DNA of 64,000 nt, from contig NZ_CP126241.1 in the NCBI RefSeq assembly GCF_030142075.1, forward strand, positions 186,001 to 250,000, read 5' to 3'. The translations under genes were made by a program, and so were the position numbers. Below, in pieces: positions 7,115-49,256 of this stretch. The DNA is from Arthrobacter sp. zg-Y20. GTDB taxonomy: Bacteria > Actinomycetota > Actinomycetes > Actinomycetales > Micrococcaceae. Under the pieces are notes generated by a model, which made no database searches, was not told the origin of the DNA, and saw nothing but the letters and a program-made list of their open reading frames with translations. Numbering within the stretch: position 1 is the stretch's first letter; each line of letters opens with the position of its first letter.

Positions 7115-7639
7115 CTACACCGTTAGCTGGCGCCGGGAGGAAATCACTCCGGTGTTGAAGCCGGCGAGGTTCAGCCCGCCGTGGAACCGGGCGTGCTCGA
7201 TCTTCACGCACCGGTCCATTACCACCCCAATGCCGGCTGCTTCGGCGTCCCTGGCCACTTCTTCGTGCCATGACCCCAGCTGTAGCCACAGGTTCTTTGC
7301 CCCCGCAGCCTTTGCTTCCTCCAGCACCCCGGGCAGGTCTTCGTGGCGGCGGAACACATCCACAATGTCCGGTGCTTCGGGAAGGTCCGCCAGCGCGGCG
7401 TACACGGGCTGGCCCAGGATCCGTTTCGCCGCGGGGTTCACGAAATAGACCCGGTAGCGGGACGAGGAGAGCAGGTACGTGGCCACGAAGTAAGAGGCAC
7501 GCGATGGTTTGTCCGAGACTCCCACAATGGCGATGGTCCGGGCACCGCGCAGCAGCGCCAGGCGTTCCGCCGCCGTCGGACCGGTCCAAGTCCTGGTTCC
7601 GGAATCTCCGGCGGTGCCGGAAGGAGTTTCAGCGGACAT
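7115..7639 (-). CDS. CoA-binding domain protein (YccU-like)
   Basis: A 174-residue protein with a single Rossmann-type CoA-binding domain: AIVGVSDKPSRASYFVATYL, then YFVNPAAKRILGQPVY and NLWLQLGSWHEE. No acyl-CoA synthetase parts are present. The start MSAETPSG was chosen over an earlier ATG; it overlaps the end of metY by 11 bases, so the two are translationally coupled. In many bacteria and archaea a protein of this kind sits next to O-acetylhomoserine sulfhydrylase, and a role in sulfur or CoA metabolism is suspected but unproven. A paralogue lies at 13363-13803. Confidence 0.88.
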   Translation of the reverse strand: MSAETPSGTAGDSGTRTWTGPTAAERLALLRGARTIAIVGVSDKPSRASYFVATYLLSSSRYRVYFVNPAAKRILGQPVYAALADLPEAPDIVDVFRRHEDLPGVLEEAKAAGAKNLWLQLGSWHEEVARDAEAAGIGVVMDRCVKIEHARFHGGLNLAGFNTGVISSRRQLTV

Positions 7640-8981
7640 CGGCGGTCTCCTTCGAAAGGTCGGCGGCACCGCTGGCGGCGGCACCGGCGGCACTGGTGCC
7701 GGCGGCTGCGGTCAGGGCCGAGTCCAGGTCCCAGAGGATGTCCGCCAGGTCCTCCAGCCCCACGGAAATGCGCACCAGGTCCTCGGATACTCCGGCGGCG
7801 GAGAGCTGGTCAGGGGAGAGCTGCTGGTGGGTGGTGGAGGCCGGGTGGATCACCAGCGTCCGGGAATCACCTACGTTGGCCAGGTGCGAGGCCAGTTGCA
7901 GGGATTCGATGAACACCTGTCCAGCTGCCCGGCCCCCGGCCACGCCAAAACTGAACACTGACCCGGGGCCCTTGGGCAGGTATTTGCGCGCCCGTTCGTG
8001 GTGCGGATGGGAGGGCAGTCCGGCGTAGCTGACCCAGGACACCCGCGGGTCCGCTTCCAGCCACTGCGCCACCGCCAAGGCGTTGCGCACGTGTTCGTCG
8101 AGGCGCTGGGCCAGCGTCTCCACTCCCTGCAGGAGGGCGAACGCCGACGTCGCACTGAGTGAGGGGCCTATGTCGCGCAGCTGTTCCGAGCGCAGCTTGG
8201 TCAGGAAACCGTATTCCCCGAAGTTGCCCCACCAGGAAACGTTGCCGTAGCTGGGCACCGGTTCGGTCATGGCCGGGAACTTCCCGTTGCCCCAGTTGAA
8301 CCGGCCGCTTTCCACAATGACGCCGCCCAGGGTGGTGCCGTGCCCGCCGAGGAACTTCGTGGCCGAGTGGATCACAATGTCCGCACCATGCGTGAAGGGC
8401 TGCACCAGGTAAGGCGTGCTGAGGGTGGCGTCCAGGATCAGCGGCACCCCGGCGTCATGCGCCACCCGGGCCAGGCCTTCGATGTCTGTGACGTCTCCGC
8501 TTGGGTTGGCCACGACTTCGGCATAAACGGCCTTGGTGTTCTCCTGCACCGCGCCGGCATAGTCCGCCGGGTCCGTGCCGGGCACGAATGTGGTTTCGAT
8601 GCCGAACCGGCGCAGCGTGACGTCCAGCTGGGTGACGGTGCCGCCGTACAGCTGGGCGGAGGCGACAATGTGGTCGCCGGCGGAACAGAGTGCGGCGAAG
8701 GTGAGGAACTCAGCGGACATGCCCGACGCCGTCGCCACGGCTCCGATTCCGCCTTCGAGGGAGGCGATGCGTTCTTCGAAGGCCGCAACAGTCGGGTTGC
8801 CGATCCGAGAGTAGATGCTGCCGTACTTCTGCAGCGAGAACAGGTTCGCGGCGTCGGCCGTGTCCTTGAAGACAAAGGACGTGGACTGGTAGATGGGTAC
8901 CGCGCGTGCCCCGTGCAGGGCGTCGGGGGTGCCGCCGGCGTGCAGGGCGCGGGTGCGGAACCCGAACTGGTGCTCACTCAT
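7629..8981 (-). CDS. metY: O-acetylhomoserine sulfhydrylase (aminocarboxypropyltransferase)
   Basis: A PLP enzyme that makes homocysteine from O-acetylhomoserine and sulfide, the direct-sulfhydrylation route to methionine. It has 450 residues, close to the usual 430-440, with a short Ala-rich tail. PLP-binding features are present: GSIYSRIGNPT, Asp184 in LILDATLSTP and the Schiff-base lysine K209 in HSATKFLGGHGT. The ribosome site GAAAGG lies close to the ATG. It is followed, with overlap, by the CoA-binding gene. No riboswitch is seen in the 130 bp upstream, unlike the neighbouring ABC operon. Confidence 0.93.
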   Translation of the reverse strand: MSEHQFGFRTRALHAGGTPDALHGARAVPIYQSTSFVFKDTADAANLFSLQKYGSIYSRIGNPTVAAFEERIASLEGGIGAVATASGMSAEFLTFAALCSAGDHIVASAQLYGGTVTQLDVTLRRFGIETTFVPGTDPADYAGAVQENTKAVYAEVVANPSGDVTDIEGLARVAHDAGVPLILDATLSTPYLVQPFTHGADIVIHSATKFLGGHGTTLGGVIVESGRFNWGNGKFPAMTEPVPSYGNVSWWGNFGEYGFLTKLRSEQLRDIGPSLSATSAFALLQGVETLAQRLDEHVRNALAVAQWLEADPRVSWVSYAGLPSHPHHERARKYLPKGPGSVFSFGVAGGRAAGQVFIESLQLASHLANVGDSRTLVIHPASTTHQQLSPDQLSAAGVSEDLVRISVGLEDLADILWDLDSALTAAAGTSAAGAAASGAADLSKETADVR

Positions 8982-9445: not shown

Positions 9446-10315
9446 TCACGTCCATTTCTTCACCGCCCGGTTCTGTGCCAGCCCCAGGACGGCGTCGGTC
9501 GCCTTGCCGAGCACGGCCAGCAGGATGATTGCCAGGAACAACCGGTCGGTCCGCCCGTTGTTCTGGGAATCCGTCAGCAGGAACCCCAGCCCCATGGAGG
9601 AAGCGATGAGTTCGGCGGCTACCAGGAACAGCCAGGACTGGGCCAGGGCCAGCCGCAGTCCGGAGAAAACCGCCGGCACCACGGCGGGCAGCTGCACGGT
9701 GGTCAGCAGCTTCAGCCCGTGCAGGCCGAAGGCCCGCGCGGCCTCCACCAGGTTCCGGTCAACATGCCGCAGGGCCAAGGCCACTGTGGTGAACACCGGG
9801 AAAAACGCGCCGATGGTGATCAGGGTGATTTTCGAATCCTCGCCGATCTTCAGCCACAGGATCAACAGCGGCACCCAGGCCAGGGAGGGCACGGCCCGCA
9901 GGGCGCCGATGGCCGGTCCCAGCAGGGTCTCGGCCAGCCGGGACAGACCCAGCAGTGCCCCCAATGCCAGGCCCAGGGTGGAGCCGAGCGCGAAGCCGAT
10001 CAGGACCCGCTGGGTGGAAATGGCAACATGGCGGCCCAGCTGTCCGCGCTGGAGCAGGTCCGCGGCCGCGGTGTACACCGCGGCGGGGGAGGGCAGCTGG
10101 ACCGGGCTGAAGGTCCCGGCAGTGGCGGCGAGCTGCCATGCGGCCAGCAGCAGGGCCGGAACCAGCAGGCCCAGGGCCAGCCGCACCGGCCGGCGGTGCA
10201 GTAATGATCCGGCGCGGCCCGGTGCCGCTGCGGCCGCCGGTACTGCAGGAACTGCCGGTGCGCTGGCCGGAGAGAGGGTGGGTGTGGCCGGTACCGGGGC
10301 GGCAGCAGTACTCAT
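9446..10315 (-). CDS. ssuC: ABC transporter permease, SsuC-like
   Basis: Inner-membrane permease of a sulfonate/taurine-type importer. It has 289 residues with an Ala/Pro-rich N-terminal tail, about six membrane helices and the BPD permease core. The EAA-like loop region (NLVEAARAFGLHGLKLLTTVQLPAVVPAVFSG) contacts the ATPase. Its ATG overlaps the stop of the substrate-binding gene by four bases. It is the last gene of the leftward operon governed by the SAM-I riboswitch at 12332-12490. The substrate class is inferred from family and regulation. Confidence 0.82.
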   Translation of the reverse strand: MSTAAAPVPATPTLSPASAPAVPAVPAAAAAPGRAGSLLHRRPVRLALGLLVPALLLAAWQLAATAGTFSPVQLPSPAAVYTAAADLLQRGQLGRHVAISTQRVLIGFALGSTLGLALGALLGLSRLAETLLGPAIGALRAVPSLAWVPLLILWLKIGEDSKITLITIGAFFPVFTTVALALRHVDRNLVEAARAFGLHGLKLLTTVQLPAVVPAVFSGLRLALAQSWLFLVAAELIASSMGLGFLLTDSQNNGRTDRLFLAIILLAVLGKATDAVLGLAQNRAVKKWT

Positions 10316-11379
10316 CGGGACGCCGCCACGGCATCAGGGTCGGCCTTGCTGACGTAGGTATCCTCCAGCAGGCCGGCCAGCGCCTCATCAACCTGTTCCT
10401 GGCTGGCGACGTCCCCGGTTTCCACCAGGGTCGGGCCGATTTTGGCCAGGACGCGGCGCTGGTCCTCTCCCGGAGCCGGGTCCACGTCCAGGTTGCTGCG
10501 TTCGAGGATCACGGTCTTGGCGACGGCGGGGTCCAGTCCTGCGACGTCGGCCAAGATCCCTGCCGTCTCGTCCGGGTGCTCCGCGGCCCAGGCGCGGGCC
10601 TTTTCATAAGCGTTGACCACTGCCTGCGCCTGCTCCGGGTTCTCCTCGAGGAAGGATTCGTTGGCCGCGAGCAGGCCGTACGTGTTGAAGTCCAGATTGC
10701 GGTAGACCAGCCGGGCCCCGTTCTGTTCCGCCCCGGCCATGATGGGATCCAACCCCGCCCACGCATCCACGGAACCGTTGTCCAGGGCAGCACGCCCGTC
10801 GGCGTGCTGCAGCTGTTCCACCGTGACGTCGGACAGGCTGAGTCCCGCCTCGTCCAGGGCCTGGACCAGGAAGAAGTACGGGTCGGTGCCCTTGGTGGCA
10901 GCCACGGACTTGCCGGCCAGGTCCGCCACGGAGGTGATGCCGGAATCCGCGCCCACCACCAGGGCGGACCATTCCGGCTGGGAGAACACGTCAATGGCCT
11001 TGATCTTCGAGCCGTTGGCCCGGTTGAGCAGGGCCGCGGAGCCGGCGGTGGAACCGATATCGATGGCCCCGGAACGCAGGTTCTCATTGGCCTTGTTGGA
11101 GCCGGCGGACTGTACCCACTCGACCGTCACGCCGTCATCCGCCAGGGAGTCCTCCAGCCAGCCTTGGTCCTTGATGATCAGGCTCAGCGGGTTGTAGGTA
11201 GCGAAGTCGATGGTGAGCGTTCCGCCGTCGGCGTCCTGGACGGCGGACGCGCCGGTGGTGTCTTCTCCGGCCACGCAGCCGGTCAGGGACAGGGCGGCGA
11301 CGGCGGCGAGGGCGCCAAGGGTGCGGGCCGTGCGGGATGGGAGGGAAAAACGGGCAGGGAGGGAAGATCGGCTGAACAT
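10312..11379 (-). CDS. ssuA: ABC transporter substrate-binding lipoprotein, SsuA-like
   Basis: An extracytoplasmic binding protein of the NMT1/SsuA type, 355 residues. The signal peptide ends in lipobox LTGC with Cys35 as the lipid anchor. The ligand-binding body follows: LTIDFATYNPLSLIIKDQGWLE, GAIDIGSTAGSAALL, SVAATKGTDPYFFLVQAL and DAWAGLDP. These resemble aliphatic-sulfonate and taurine binders. It is the second gene of the operon, separated from the ATPase by about 120 bp containing a small hairpin (AGCCTG/CAGGCT), which may alter relative expression. The exact sulfur ligand cannot be predicted. Confidence 0.85.
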   Translation of the reverse strand: MFSRSSLPARFSLPSRTARTLGALAAVAALSLTGCVAGEDTTGASAVQDADGGTLTIDFATYNPLSLIIKDQGWLEDSLADDGVTVEWVQSAGSNKANENLRSGAIDIGSTAGSAALLNRANGSKIKAIDVFSQPEWSALVVGADSGITSVADLAGKSVAATKGTDPYFFLVQALDEAGLSLSDVTVEQLQHADGRAALDNGSVDAWAGLDPIMAGAEQNGARLVYRNLDFNTYGLLAANESFLEENPEQAQAVVNAYEKARAWAAEHPDETAGILADVAGLDPAVAKTVILERSNLDVDPAPGEDQRRVLAKIGPTLVETGDVASQEQVDEALAGLLEDTYVSKADPDAVAASR

Positions 11380-11500: not shown

Positions 11501-12322
11501 CTAGCGGCGTTCGACGCCCAGCAGGGCCAGGAGCTCGCCGCGCATTCGGGCCAGTTCCGCCGAGGCGCGGTCCCGCGGACGGTCGCCGGGTACAGCGACA
11601 ACGTTGGTGATGGTTGCGCCGGGTGCCCCCGGTTCGGTGCCCAGCACAATGATGCGGTCCGCCAGCTGGAGGGCCTCATCCACGTCATGGGTGACCAGCA
11701 GTACCGTGGCGGGGGCTGCCCGGTGCAGGGACAGGAGCAGGTCCTGCATCTTCAGCCGGGTCAGGGCATCCAGGGCCCCGAAGGGTTCGTCCAGCAGCAG
11801 GACACCGGGCTCACGCGCCAGTGCCCGGGCCAGTGAAGCCCGCTGCGCCATGCCGCCGGACACCGCCCGGGGCCGGTGCTTGGCGAAGGCGGTCAGCCCC
11901 ACGAGGTCCAAAAGTTCGGCCACGCGGGCCTTGCCCCGGCTGGCGCTTGAGGATTTGGGCAGGCCGATTGCAATGTTGGCTTGCAGGGTTTGCCACGGCA
12001 GCAGCCGCGGCTCCTGGAAGGCGACGGCGCACTGCTCACTGATGCCGTTCACCGGCTTGCCGCCGATCAGGACGGCGCCGGAGGAAGGCCGGTCCAGGCC
12101 GGCCGCAGCGCGCAGCAGGGTGGATTTGCCGCAGCCGCTGGCCCCGAGAACGGCCAGTACCTCCCCCGGGACAACGTCGAAACTGACGTCCCGCAGGACT
12201 ACGTGTTCGTCATTGCCGGTGCCGAAGCTGCGGCCGAGCCGGTCAAACGTGATCGGAAGGGCGGGCCCGGCCGGCTGGGCGGTGCCGGAAGCGGGCGTGG
12301 AAGAAGCCAGAACTGCTGTCAT
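11501..12322 (-). CDS. ssuB: ABC transporter ATP-binding protein, SsuB-like
   Basis: The cytoplasmic ATPase of the importer, 273 residues. Walker A is GASGCGKST (60-68), the signature is VSGGMAQRASLARAL, Walker B is VLLLDEPFGALD and the switch His is in VTHDVDEAL. It is the first gene after the SAM-I aptamer. The ribosome site GGAG begins inside the aptamer's closing stem, eight bases before the ATG, so translation initiation should fall when SAM binds. The operon order ATPase, binding protein, permease differs from the E. coli ssuEADCB order. Confidence 0.88.
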   Translation of the reverse strand: MTAVLASSTPASGTAQPAGPALPITFDRLGRSFGTGNDEHVVLRDVSFDVVPGEVLAVLGASGCGKSTLLRAAAGLDRPSSGAVLIGGKPVNGISEQCAVAFQEPRLLPWQTLQANIAIGLPKSSSASRGKARVAELLDLVGLTAFAKHRPRAVSGGMAQRASLARALAREPGVLLLDEPFGALDALTRLKMQDLLLSLHRAAPATVLLVTHDVDEALQLADRIIVLGTEPGAPGATITNVVAVPGDRPRDRASAELARMRGELLALLGVERR

Positions 12323-12331
12323 AGAAACACT

Positions 12332-12490
12332 CCATCGTTCCTGGCAGTAGCACCCTACGGAAAGTGTCCTGAGCCGGGATAACGGCTTCCTGCGACACCA
12401 GCCTCGTTATTGCCGCACTTCAAGGAGGAAATGCGGCAACCAGGGTTGCTGCGGCTTCATCGATCCAGGTCTCTCAGCCGCTCGGGATGG
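12332..12490 (-). promoter_or_regulatory. SAM-I (S-box) riboswitch, likely translational
   Basis: Read on the minus strand, the RNA opens with CCATCCCGAG and contains the S-box core CTGAGAGACCTGG, then TCGATGAAGCCGCAGCAACC (P2, kink-turn and start of P3). The P3 stem TTGCCGCA/TGCGGCAA, a further stem and the 3' core GGGTGCTACTGCCAGG follow. It closes with GATGG, which pairs with the first CCATC to form P1. The bases after P1 complete ATGGAG, the Shine-Dalgarno of ssuB. There is no room for a terminator before the ATG, so control is expected at translation. At 159 bases it is long for the class because of extended side stems. Confidence 0.92.
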
Positions 12491-12499
12491 TCACGCACA

Positions 12500-12528
12500 A
12501 CTAAACGCCGGATCCGCACATCCGACAA
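12500..12528 (-). promoter_or_regulatory. promoter of the riboswitch-controlled ssu operon
   Basis: On the minus strand, TTGTCG (12528-12523) and TTTAGT (12505-12500) are 17 bp apart. The expected start of transcription, near 12493, falls directly before the first base of the aptamer's P1 stem, which supports both calls. Confidence 0.55.
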
Positions 12529-12595
12529 GTGTTGGCCTGTGAGCCGGTTCACAAAACGACATGTTCCGGCATCGGGCACGGCGGCGTGCAGGGCA

Positions 12596-12625
12596 TTGAC
12601 CTTGTCCGGCACCGGCTCCTACCGT
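12596..12625 (+). promoter_or_regulatory. candidate promoter for the alpha/beta-hydrolase-like gene
   Basis: TTGACC (12596-12601) and TACCGT (12620-12625) are separated by 18 bp, about 70 bp before the start codon at 12697. The -10 is only a partial match. Confidence 0.35.
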
Positions 12626-12696
12626 TGAATTCCGGCCCCGGCCCAGCAGCACCGGCCCAGTGAGCACCAAAGAGCATCCAACGAGCAGGAGCGGTC

Positions 12697-13308
12697 ATGG
12701 AACCCAGCGCCTCCGGAACTGTTTCGTCCGCAGACGGAACGCCCATCGCCTGGTCCCGCCAGGGCAGCGGCCCGCCGCTGGCCATAGTCGGTCCCCTCCT
12801 GGCGCACCGGAGCAGCCGCGCGACGGCGGCCCTCGCAGGCATCCTGTCCCGGAACCACACTGTGTACACCTATGACCGCCGGGGTATCGGGGAAAGCGGG
12901 ATCGGTGAGGAATACACGGCCGAATCCGACGTGGATGACCTGCTGGCCGTGCTCCAGGTGGCCGGCGAATCAACGGACCTTTACGGCTTTGACGAGGGAG
13001 CGTTCCTGGCGCTGCGGGCCGCCGAGGAGTCGGTGGTGGTCAACCGGGTGGTGGCGCTGGAACCCGCCCTCGCCCCGGCGGAGGGCGAGGACGAACTGCT
13101 CGTGATGCAGACCGAAATCGAAGGACTCGGCGGCATCAGCGTCCCGGTCCTCATCCTGGCGGGCAGCGGCAGTGCCGATGAGACGCGGGATCTTGCCCAA
13201 CGGGCTGCCGATGCCTTGGAATCCGGGGAGTTCCGGCTGCTGGAGGCGGATGCGGGCGGCGTGCCCGACGCCGCGGTGGCAGAGGCCATCGAGTCTTTCC
13301 TGGACTGA
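12697..13308 (+). CDS. alpha/beta-hydrolase-fold protein lacking the usual catalytic residues
   Basis: A 203-residue protein that threads onto the alpha/beta-hydrolase core: the strand and oxyanion region LAIVGPLLAHRSSRATAAL, YDRRGIGESG, and the nucleophile elbow LYGFDEGAFLALRAA. At the elbow the family's Ser is Asp99 (G-F-D-E-G). Near the C-terminus, where a catalytic His is expected before the last helix, the sequence reads ADAGGVPDAAV with no His. The cap domain is also missing (usual length 260-290). It is probably non-hydrolytic or uses other chemistry. It is followed 54 bp later by a CoA-binding gene on the same strand. Confidence 0.8.
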   Translation: MEPSASGTVSSADGTPIAWSRQGSGPPLAIVGPLLAHRSSRATAALAGILSRNHTVYTYDRRGIGESGIGEEYTAESDVDDLLAVLQVAGESTDLYGFDEGAFLALRAAEESVVVNRVVALEPALAPAEGEDELLVMQTEIEGLGGISVPVLILAGSGSADETRDLAQRAADALESGEFRLLEADAGGVPDAAVAEAIESFLD

Positions 13309-33996: not shown

Positions 33997-39170
<5,174 letters not shown>

Positions 39171-39389
39171 CACATCAACACCTGGGGAAACACGACTTCA
39201 AACGGTTTCCCAATGTAGAGGGTGTTGTGATCATGCTGCTTGCGTCCACTATGTGGTTCCCGGACAACAACCCGTCAAGGGTTGTTCCCCTGGGAACAAT
39301 AACTGAATATTTGCTTACGTCTTTTTGATGTTCGTGACCATTGTTTTCCCCACGCACACTGTTTTTGGGTGTGTGGTGCGGGTGGAAGG

Positions 39390-39508
39390 GTTACGGCGGT
39401 CATAGCGTGGGGGAAACGCCCGGTCCCATTCCGAACCCGGAAGCTAAGACCCACAGCGCCGATGGTACTGCATCCGGGAGGGTGTGGGAGAGTAGGTCAC
39501 CGCCGGAC
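39390..39508 (+). rRNA. rrf: 5S ribosomal RNA, operon 1
   Basis: GTTACGGCGGTCATAGCG to GTCACCGCCGGAC, with the ends pairing as helix I, and the conserved CCCATTCCGAACCCGGAAG loop. 119 bases. It follows 23S by about 220 bases that include a hairpin AACAACCC/GGGTTGTT (39266-39286). Confidence 0.97.
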
Positions 39509-41837: not shown

Positions 41838-47011
<5,174 letters not shown>

Positions 47012-47230
47012 CACATCAACACCTGGGGAAACACGACTTCAAACGGTTTCCCAATGTAGAGGGTGTTGTGATCATGCTGCTTGCGTCCACTATGTGGTTC
47101 CCGGACAACAACCCGTCAAGGGTTGTTCCCCTGGGAACAATAACTGAATATTTGCTTACGTCTTTTTGATGTTCGTGACCATTGTTTTCCCCACGCACAC
47201 TGTTTTTGGGTGTGTGGTGCGGGTGGAAGG

Positions 47231-47349
47231 GTTACGGCGGTCATAGCGTGGGGGAAACGCCCGGTCCCATTCCGAACCCGGAAGCTAAGACCCACAGCGC
47301 CGATGGTACTGCATCCGGGAGGGTGTGGGAGAGTAGGTCACCGCCGGAC
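47231..47349 (+). rRNA. rrf: 5S ribosomal RNA, operon 2
   Basis: Same 119-base sequence as the operon 1 copy. Confidence 0.97.
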
Positions 47350-49137: not shown

Positions 49138-49256
49138 GTTACGGCGGTCATAGCGTGGGGGAAACGCCCGGTCCCATTCCGAACCCGGAAGCTAAGACCC
49201 ACAGCGCCGATGGTACTGCATCCGGGAGGGTGTGGGAGAGTAGGTCACCGCCGGAC
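49138..49256 (+). rRNA. rrf: solitary 5S ribosomal RNA, third copy
   Basis: The same 119-base 5S sequence as in the two operons, but with no 16S or 23S beside it and with unrelated flanks. A TAGACT -10-like hexamer sits at 49060-49065, and a distinct terminator follows. It therefore seems to be an independent 5S transcription unit. Confidence 0.95.

Follow-up and report, generated by a model that had tools for sequence, protein, structure and literature searches.

SAM-I riboswitches in which the ribosome-binding site lies in the 3' side of P1 are known, and the available part of PMC2258182 describes them as commonest in Actinobacteria and Cyanobacteria. The same part of that paper describes many riboswitches as tolerating variable insertions. 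In another class of SAM riboswitch, SAM-I/IV, P2 is undivided, P4 is present and PK-1 is lacking, as characterized in the part of PMC6890682 that was available. A preliminary description of a 64,000-nucleotide stretch of DNA from Arthrobacter sp. zg-Y20 (the window) had proposed a SAM-I riboswitch in which the ribosome site begins inside P1. Because overlap of P1 and the ribosome site has already been described (PMC2258182, as far as the available part goes), that main point is ordinary for the phylum, and control through P1 is already known in kind. Here we report that P3 of this leader carries a predicted three-way junction, and within the reach of the literature searches this appears to be a structural variant not described before. 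No description of such a module was found in the literature searched by titles and the beginnings of abstracts, a partial coverage that leaves its absence from print unproven.

The leader is very likely a SAM riboswitch of the SAM-I/SAM-IV clan. A cmscan search of 351 bases matched the Rfam SAM family (RF00162) at 12329-12493 on the minus strand with 41.3 bits and an E value of 3.1e-8, and found no second credible Rfam family at the leader. The covariance check against RF00162 that had been suggested was thus borne out by the E value, but the score is under the curated gathering score of 44.4 bits. No further RF00162 match turned up in the 3.5-Mb genome at E≤10. There were also three SAM-IV riboswitches above the cut-off in the same genome (C1:87017, 1233054 and 2937039), beside the single RF00162-type switch. 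At the gathering level, Rfam detected only rRNA and SRP RNA over the whole window. Two rRNA operons (33997-39508 and 41838-47349) scored identically in Rfam, and 1.8 kb past the second lies a solitary third 5S rRNA (49140-49256).

Homologues of 161-166 nt were present in 28 of 29 same-genus genomes, the window's own counted, and absent from one (G007). The sequence differences among these orthologues are mostly within P3. Because all 28 of the same-genus orthologues found fall just below the Rfam cut-off, annotation that relies on this cut-off can overlook such leaders. The thirty short-P3 loci L002-L031, picked as best matches, all scored above it. The features of the leader are as follows.

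12523..12528, minus strand: -35-like TTGTCG (CTTG[CT]C in 24/28 same-genus and 6/62 other listed loci)
12500..12505, minus strand: -10-like TTTAGT, 8 nt before the aptamer (conservation of GTTTAGT)
12330..12491, minus strand: SAM riboswitch aptamer, ACCATC to GATGGAG (RF00162, 41.3 bits; fold)
12486..12490, minus strand: P1 5' strand CCAUC (sequence, RF00162 alignment, fold)
12451..12481, minus strand: P2 with kink-turn signature and GCGGC/GCCGC base (RF00162 alignment, fold)
12465..12469, minus strand: PK-1 5' strand CCUGG in the P2 loop (complementarity to CCAGG, compensatory changes)
12353..12445, minus strand: predicted P3 three-way-junction module (covariance models R1 and R2, covariation)
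12410..12439, minus strand: P3a hairpin, apical UCCUCCUU (72 distinct arms, z scores)
12426..12429, minus strand: UCCU, 5' partner of the proposed loop contact (loop complementarity)
12404..12409, minus strand: junction strand UAACGA between P3a and P3b (conservation in 82 distinct sequences)
12359..12403, minus strand: P3b hairpin with internal loop (73 distinct arms, z scores)
12388..12391, minus strand: AGGA, 3' partner of the proposed loop contact (loop complementarity)
12340..12344, minus strand: PK-1 3' strand CCAGG, then P1 with no space for P4 (sequence)
12332..12336, minus strand: P1 3' strand GAUGG (sequence, RF00162 alignment, fold)
12330..12333, minus strand: Shine-Dalgarno GGAG, first two bases within P1 (sequence)

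The kink-turn P2 and the GCAACC ... GGUGC core of P3 and J3 are present, as judged from the RF00162 alignment and its invariant columns. PK-1 pairs at five or six of six positions in all 120 cores selected by a sequence pattern that fixed the P2-loop side as YYYGGN, and three double compensations (CUUGGC/GCCAAG, CCCGGC/GCCGGG and UCUGGC/GCCAGA) were found in one core each among the 120. P4 is absent: the linker from GCT to CGATG measured 10-12 nt in 120/120 of the pattern-selected cores (the pattern permitted only 8-14), and there was no P4 in any of 30 loci inspected by eye. The complete S-box core of the preliminary description was found at its place on the minus strand, but with P4 missing and P3 some 70 nt over the Rfam consensus; that reading had passed over both the absent P4 and the three-way junction. 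We therefore class the leader as a variant of the clan that lacks P4 and probably works like SAM-I.

The roughly 70 nt that P3 has in excess of the Rfam consensus are predicted to fold as a three-way junction, with a CCCU/AGGG base, the hairpins P3a and P3b, and junction strands GG, UANCRA and GU. Among 82 distinct sequences, whose alignment (A3) was fitted to the covariance model and so leans to the structure, 21 of 31 module pairs were altered on both sides, in 457 such cells, and 90.8% of cells were paired. Slid controls gave 9-14 pairs with 35-47% of cells paired. Shuffles gave 18.7 pairs and 162 changed cells, and 4 of 500 reached 21 pairs. A smaller set of 24 distinct sequences (23 from the same genus plus L060) had 15 of 35 pairs altered on both sides, four of the 35 being loop-contact pairs. 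The corresponding figures were 9.1 for shuffles and 3-8 for slid controls, and the 29 types of pair seen scarcely surpassed the shuffled 27.7. Two of the pairs in P3b are not formed in about half of the sequences. A MAFFT alignment of all genera (A4) misplaced helices and was excluded from the counts.

Folding of the arms without any alignment gave a mean z of -3.84 for P3a, with 71 of 72 distinct arms below -1, and of -2.33 for P3b, with 66 of 73 below -1. Arms this much stabler than shuffles, together with the covariation and with a junction that hardly changes across five genera, argue against the P3 insert being a neutral variable insertion. Such an insertion would fit the range of P3 lengths ahead of the same gene, from 12 to 99 nt, but on balance we regard it as very improbable. 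At the junction, eight of the ten unpaired positions are 94-100% conserved, and most arm positions vary. In the UAACGA strand, the U, an A, the C and the last A are each at 94-100% in the 82 distinct sequences, and the fifth base is A or G in all of them.

The C-rich apical loop of P3a complements the G-rich 5' internal loop of P3b, and a tertiary contact between the two loops is likely on this complementarity. Within the genus the contact reads UCCU/AGGA or longer, and many loci from other genera have UCCC/GGGA, CCCA/UGGG, CCCU/AGGG or UUCCC/GGGAA. At least four consecutive Watson-Crick pairs were found in 35 of 52 distinct loop pairs, compared with 12.3 after letter shuffling (maximum 22 in 1000 runs). 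Swapping partners gave 27.9 (sd 3.1, maximum 37 in 500 runs), a modest excess for the true partners that is small because both loop sides are near-constant. The contact is missing in four of the 52 pairs (L117, L123, L124 and L126). In the copies L123, L124 and L126, which belong to genus g31, the arms also look degenerate, and these loci may show decay of the module. A CUGACCA-like stretch recurs in the P3b apical loop of several g31 loci (L066, L085, L099) and was not seen elsewhere by eye.

The P3a loop could also act on translation, if its CCUCC masked GGAG directly. CUCC is present in the P3a apical loop of all 28 same-genus sequences. However, only 16 of the 62 other-genus sequences among the matches listed have it, though the ribosome site is retained, and what is kept instead is the complement in P3b. 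We rejected pairing of the P3a-loop CUCC with the ribosome site, since it is not conserved outside the genus, and we give masking of this kind next to no credence.

Of 395 genomes of the family, 131 had a match to the covariance model R1 at E≤0.01. The module was found at at least 90 loci in at least 85 genomes from five genera of the family, with at least 82 distinct sequences. We define long-P3 loci as full-length R1 matches of 112-128 nt; the remaining listed matches have shorter P3 arms. A loose first look with R1 across 396 genomes of the order, in which known carriers could be missed, gave nine matches at E≤1e-6, none of them outside the family of the window. With R2, a search of 394 genomes of the class gave eight weak matches (E 0.005-0.1) besides the window and missed the known carrier G081. 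A further R2 search of 38 genomes recovered the module in 27, always at known SAM switches. This search was weak: of the 37 known carriers among the 38 genomes (all but G066) it failed to detect 10, and in G132, G151, G180 and G205 it passed over the second copies already known. No free-standing copy of the module was seen among its 27 matches.

The window's locus and 82 others among the 90 long-P3 loci in the matches listed precede a relative of the window's ATPase gene. At 80 loci with such a relative, P3 was 86-99 nt long in 52, 59 nt in 3 and 12-29 nt in 10, and 15 had no core recognized by the pattern. Two of these 15 (L159 and L189) have the gene near a contig end, and the other 13 are in records titled as other genera, Plantibacter, Cryobacterium and Nocardioides among them. 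Since relatives exist with the same core, the same gene and a P3 of 12-29 nt, the module is an add-on to the core, and these ten loci make it look dispensable for basic function.

SAM leaders also lie ahead of genes for acetyl-CoA synthetase. AMP-binding and ACAS_N are matched at L125, which has a long P3, and at L128, whose P3 is shorter; by visual inspection L061 is similar. A long-P3 leader at an ssuB locus of Arthrobacter type occurs in a record under the title Vibrio cholerae strain 35D (L185, also L081), which is probably mislabelled.

P1 is formed by CCATC (12490-12486) and GATGG (12336-12332), exactly as first described. The ribosome site does begin inside P1 as claimed, but GGAG stands 7 nt, not nine, from the ATG (12322-12320, minus strand). 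The window thus has its ribosome site in the 3' strand of P1 with a start codon close by. Elsewhere, GATGGAG is retained in 117 of 125 distinct pattern-picked cores, and in 109 of the 125 a start codon lies no more than about 16 nt away. Among the matches listed, a start codon follows just after GATGGAG in 85 of 90 long-P3 loci, the exceptions being five second copies in genus g8 (L100, L101, L107, L109 and L110). P1 is nearly invariant (ACCATC in 111 of 120 cores), and covariation therefore cannot confirm it. A scan of 12290-12700 found no intrinsic terminator 3' of the aptamer on the coding strand. The single terminator-like site in that range, 12527-12506, precedes the aptamer, and an intrinsic terminator after the aptamer was dropped as a candidate.

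Concealment of the ribosome site by SAM-bound P1 is the best-supported mechanism, because of the start codons at 85 of the 90 listed loci and the lack of a downstream terminator. SAM would bind between P1 and P3, lock P1 and conceal GGAG; without SAM, the 5-bp P1 would open and ribosomes would load. The outcome would be that SAM turns off translation of an SsuBAC-type importer. We hold SAM-responsive repression of translation to be highly probable. The earlier proposal that SAM shuts off translation of the importer gains from P1 covering GGAG and from the same two observations, but SAM binding and repression are themselves predictions. Alternatively, control could be mainly transcriptional: with SAM bound, Rho would terminate transcription of the untranslated message. 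Blocking of ribosomes can expose an mRNA to Rho, and in several other SAM leaders of these genomes, which lack a start codon close to P1, a stretch resembling CGTTGGTC looks by eye as if it might base-pair with the aptamer's end. Here, however, the ribosome site is within P1 and the coding strand of 12290-12700 has no intrinsic terminator after the aptamer, and we judge the Rho route unlikely.

In the five g8 second copies, the start codon is distant from P1 and the expression platform is another one, and the module is retained before other genes, such as SBP_bac_5 (a family 5 solute-binding protein) in L107 and MFS_1 (an MFS transporter) in L100. Because these copies keep the module with the start codon far from P1, they suggest that it belongs to the aptamer and not to translation control. 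L107 also has a possible anti-P1.

The transcript would start near 12493. A -35/-10 pair had been proposed to set the start just before the aptamer, and the two boxes, TTGTCG and TTTAGT, are separated by a 17-nt spacer. GTTTAGT occurs at the same place in 28/28 same-genus orthologues and in 10/62 other-genus loci among the matches listed. The proposal therefore has the conservation of the boxes within the genus behind it, but they are rare elsewhere and a strict sigma-70 promoter scan of 12290-12700 found none. When folding was begun at the predicted start, P1, P2 and the P3 module were all in the centroid, and with 19 nt more upstream there was no P1. The whole leader folds moderately better than shuffles (z -1.98), and forcing the consensus helices costs 0.2 kcal/mol above the minimum.

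Upstream of the promoter, the minus strand has a perfect palindrome, TGTGAACCGGCTCACA, at 12538-12553, with one match in the window compared with 0.03 expected (3/100 shuffles). We take this palindrome to be CRP/GlxR-like. A different motif, T[AG]TTAC, is present 51-75 nt before the aptamer in 70 of 90 listed long-P3 upstream regions (2.6 in letter shuffles) and is a possible regulator site; it is absent from the window and from 8 more of the 28 same-genus loci.

Four genes follow the leader.

11501..12322, minus strand: SsuB-like ABC ATPase (Pfam ABC_tran; NCBIfam PRK11247, 207 bits, below the cut-off of 395)
10312..11379, minus strand: SsuA-family binding protein (TIGR01728, SsuA_fam, 217.1 bits, above the cut-off of 163.5)
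9446..10315, minus strand: SsuC-like permease (Pfam BPD_transp_1; PRK11365, 189 bits, below the cut-off of 347)
7629..8981, minus strand: O-acetylhomoserine sulfhydrylase of MetY type, after a 464-nt gap (TIGR01326, 585.6 bits, above the cut-off of 495.1)

The importer had been called sulfonate-type. The SsuA_fam match agrees with this, but the ATPase and the permease are below the curated equivalog cut-offs, and we call it a putative sulfonate-type importer on the strength of TIGR01728.

With P3a and P3b set on the conserved junction and joined by the UCCU/AGGA contact, the module would form a rigid scaffold. This scaffold would stabilize P3 and the pocket in an aptamer without the P4 of SAM-I or the P5 and PK-2 of SAM-IV. 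We put the scaffold role at about an even chance. The explanation as a whole, a SAM translational off-switch with a docked P3 scaffold, is probable from the comparative sequence data.

The junction could also be a nested second sensor, for a ligand, an ion, a tRNA or a protein, that would stiffen or loosen P3 and so tune the SAM response. Parallel arms joined through loops on a junction resemble purine-type aptamers. The conservation at 94-100% of eight of ten junction positions (GG, UANCRA, GU) in an otherwise variable module of five genera, and the retention of the module where the five g8 second copies precede different genes and use a different expression platform, would be consistent with sensing. 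However, a scaffold can have a conserved junction as well, no other credible Rfam family was found at the leader, and there was no free-standing copy among the 27 R2 matches in 38 genomes, a weak search that missed 10 of 37 carriers. We consider a second sensor improbable, slightly more so than control through Rho. If true, it would be a riboswitch inside a riboswitch, with one leader taking two inputs by nesting and not in tandem.

Compared with SAM-I (RF00162), the leader, with its docked P3 scaffold as the preferred reading, is alike in its core sequence, its kink-turn P2, PK-1 between the P2 loop and J3, and P1 and P3 around the SAM pocket. It also shares the ribosome site in the 3' side of P1 described in the available part of PMC2258182. 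It is unlike SAM-I in having no P4, a score below gathering, and a P3 with a three-way junction of about 70 additional nt. Like SAM-IV (RF00634), it lacks P4 and has PK-1, going by the class definition in the available part of PMC6890682. Unlike SAM-IV, it has no P5 or PK-2 after P1, where the ribosome site and start codon directly adjoin. We rejected membership of SAM-IV, as the start codon is 7 nt past GGAG and there was no RF00634 match at the locus. SAM-I/IV (RF01725) belongs to the same clan and has the same pocket (PMC6890682, available part); judged against that same part, the leader differs in its divided P2 with a kink-turn, its PK-1 and its missing P4. Membership of SAM-I/IV was likewise rejected, as RF01725 matched nowhere in the genome of the window at E≤10 and a kink-turn is present.

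A SAM-I riboswitch of Xanthomonas with a tRNA-sensing platform, as presented in the available part of PMC7270179, is alike in combining translational SAM-I control with an extra element. In that system the expression platform holds the extra element, whereas the extra fold in Arthrobacter is inside P3. Unlike the tRNA-sensing SAM-I of Xanthomonas, the Arthrobacter leader gave no evidence of tRNA. The P3 module would add a further periphery to the aptamers of the SAM clan, beside P4 in SAM-I and P5 and PK-2 in SAM-IV, and related species that differ in having or lacking the module, with core and downstream gene unchanged, provide a natural experiment on peripheral RNA structure in ligand sensing.
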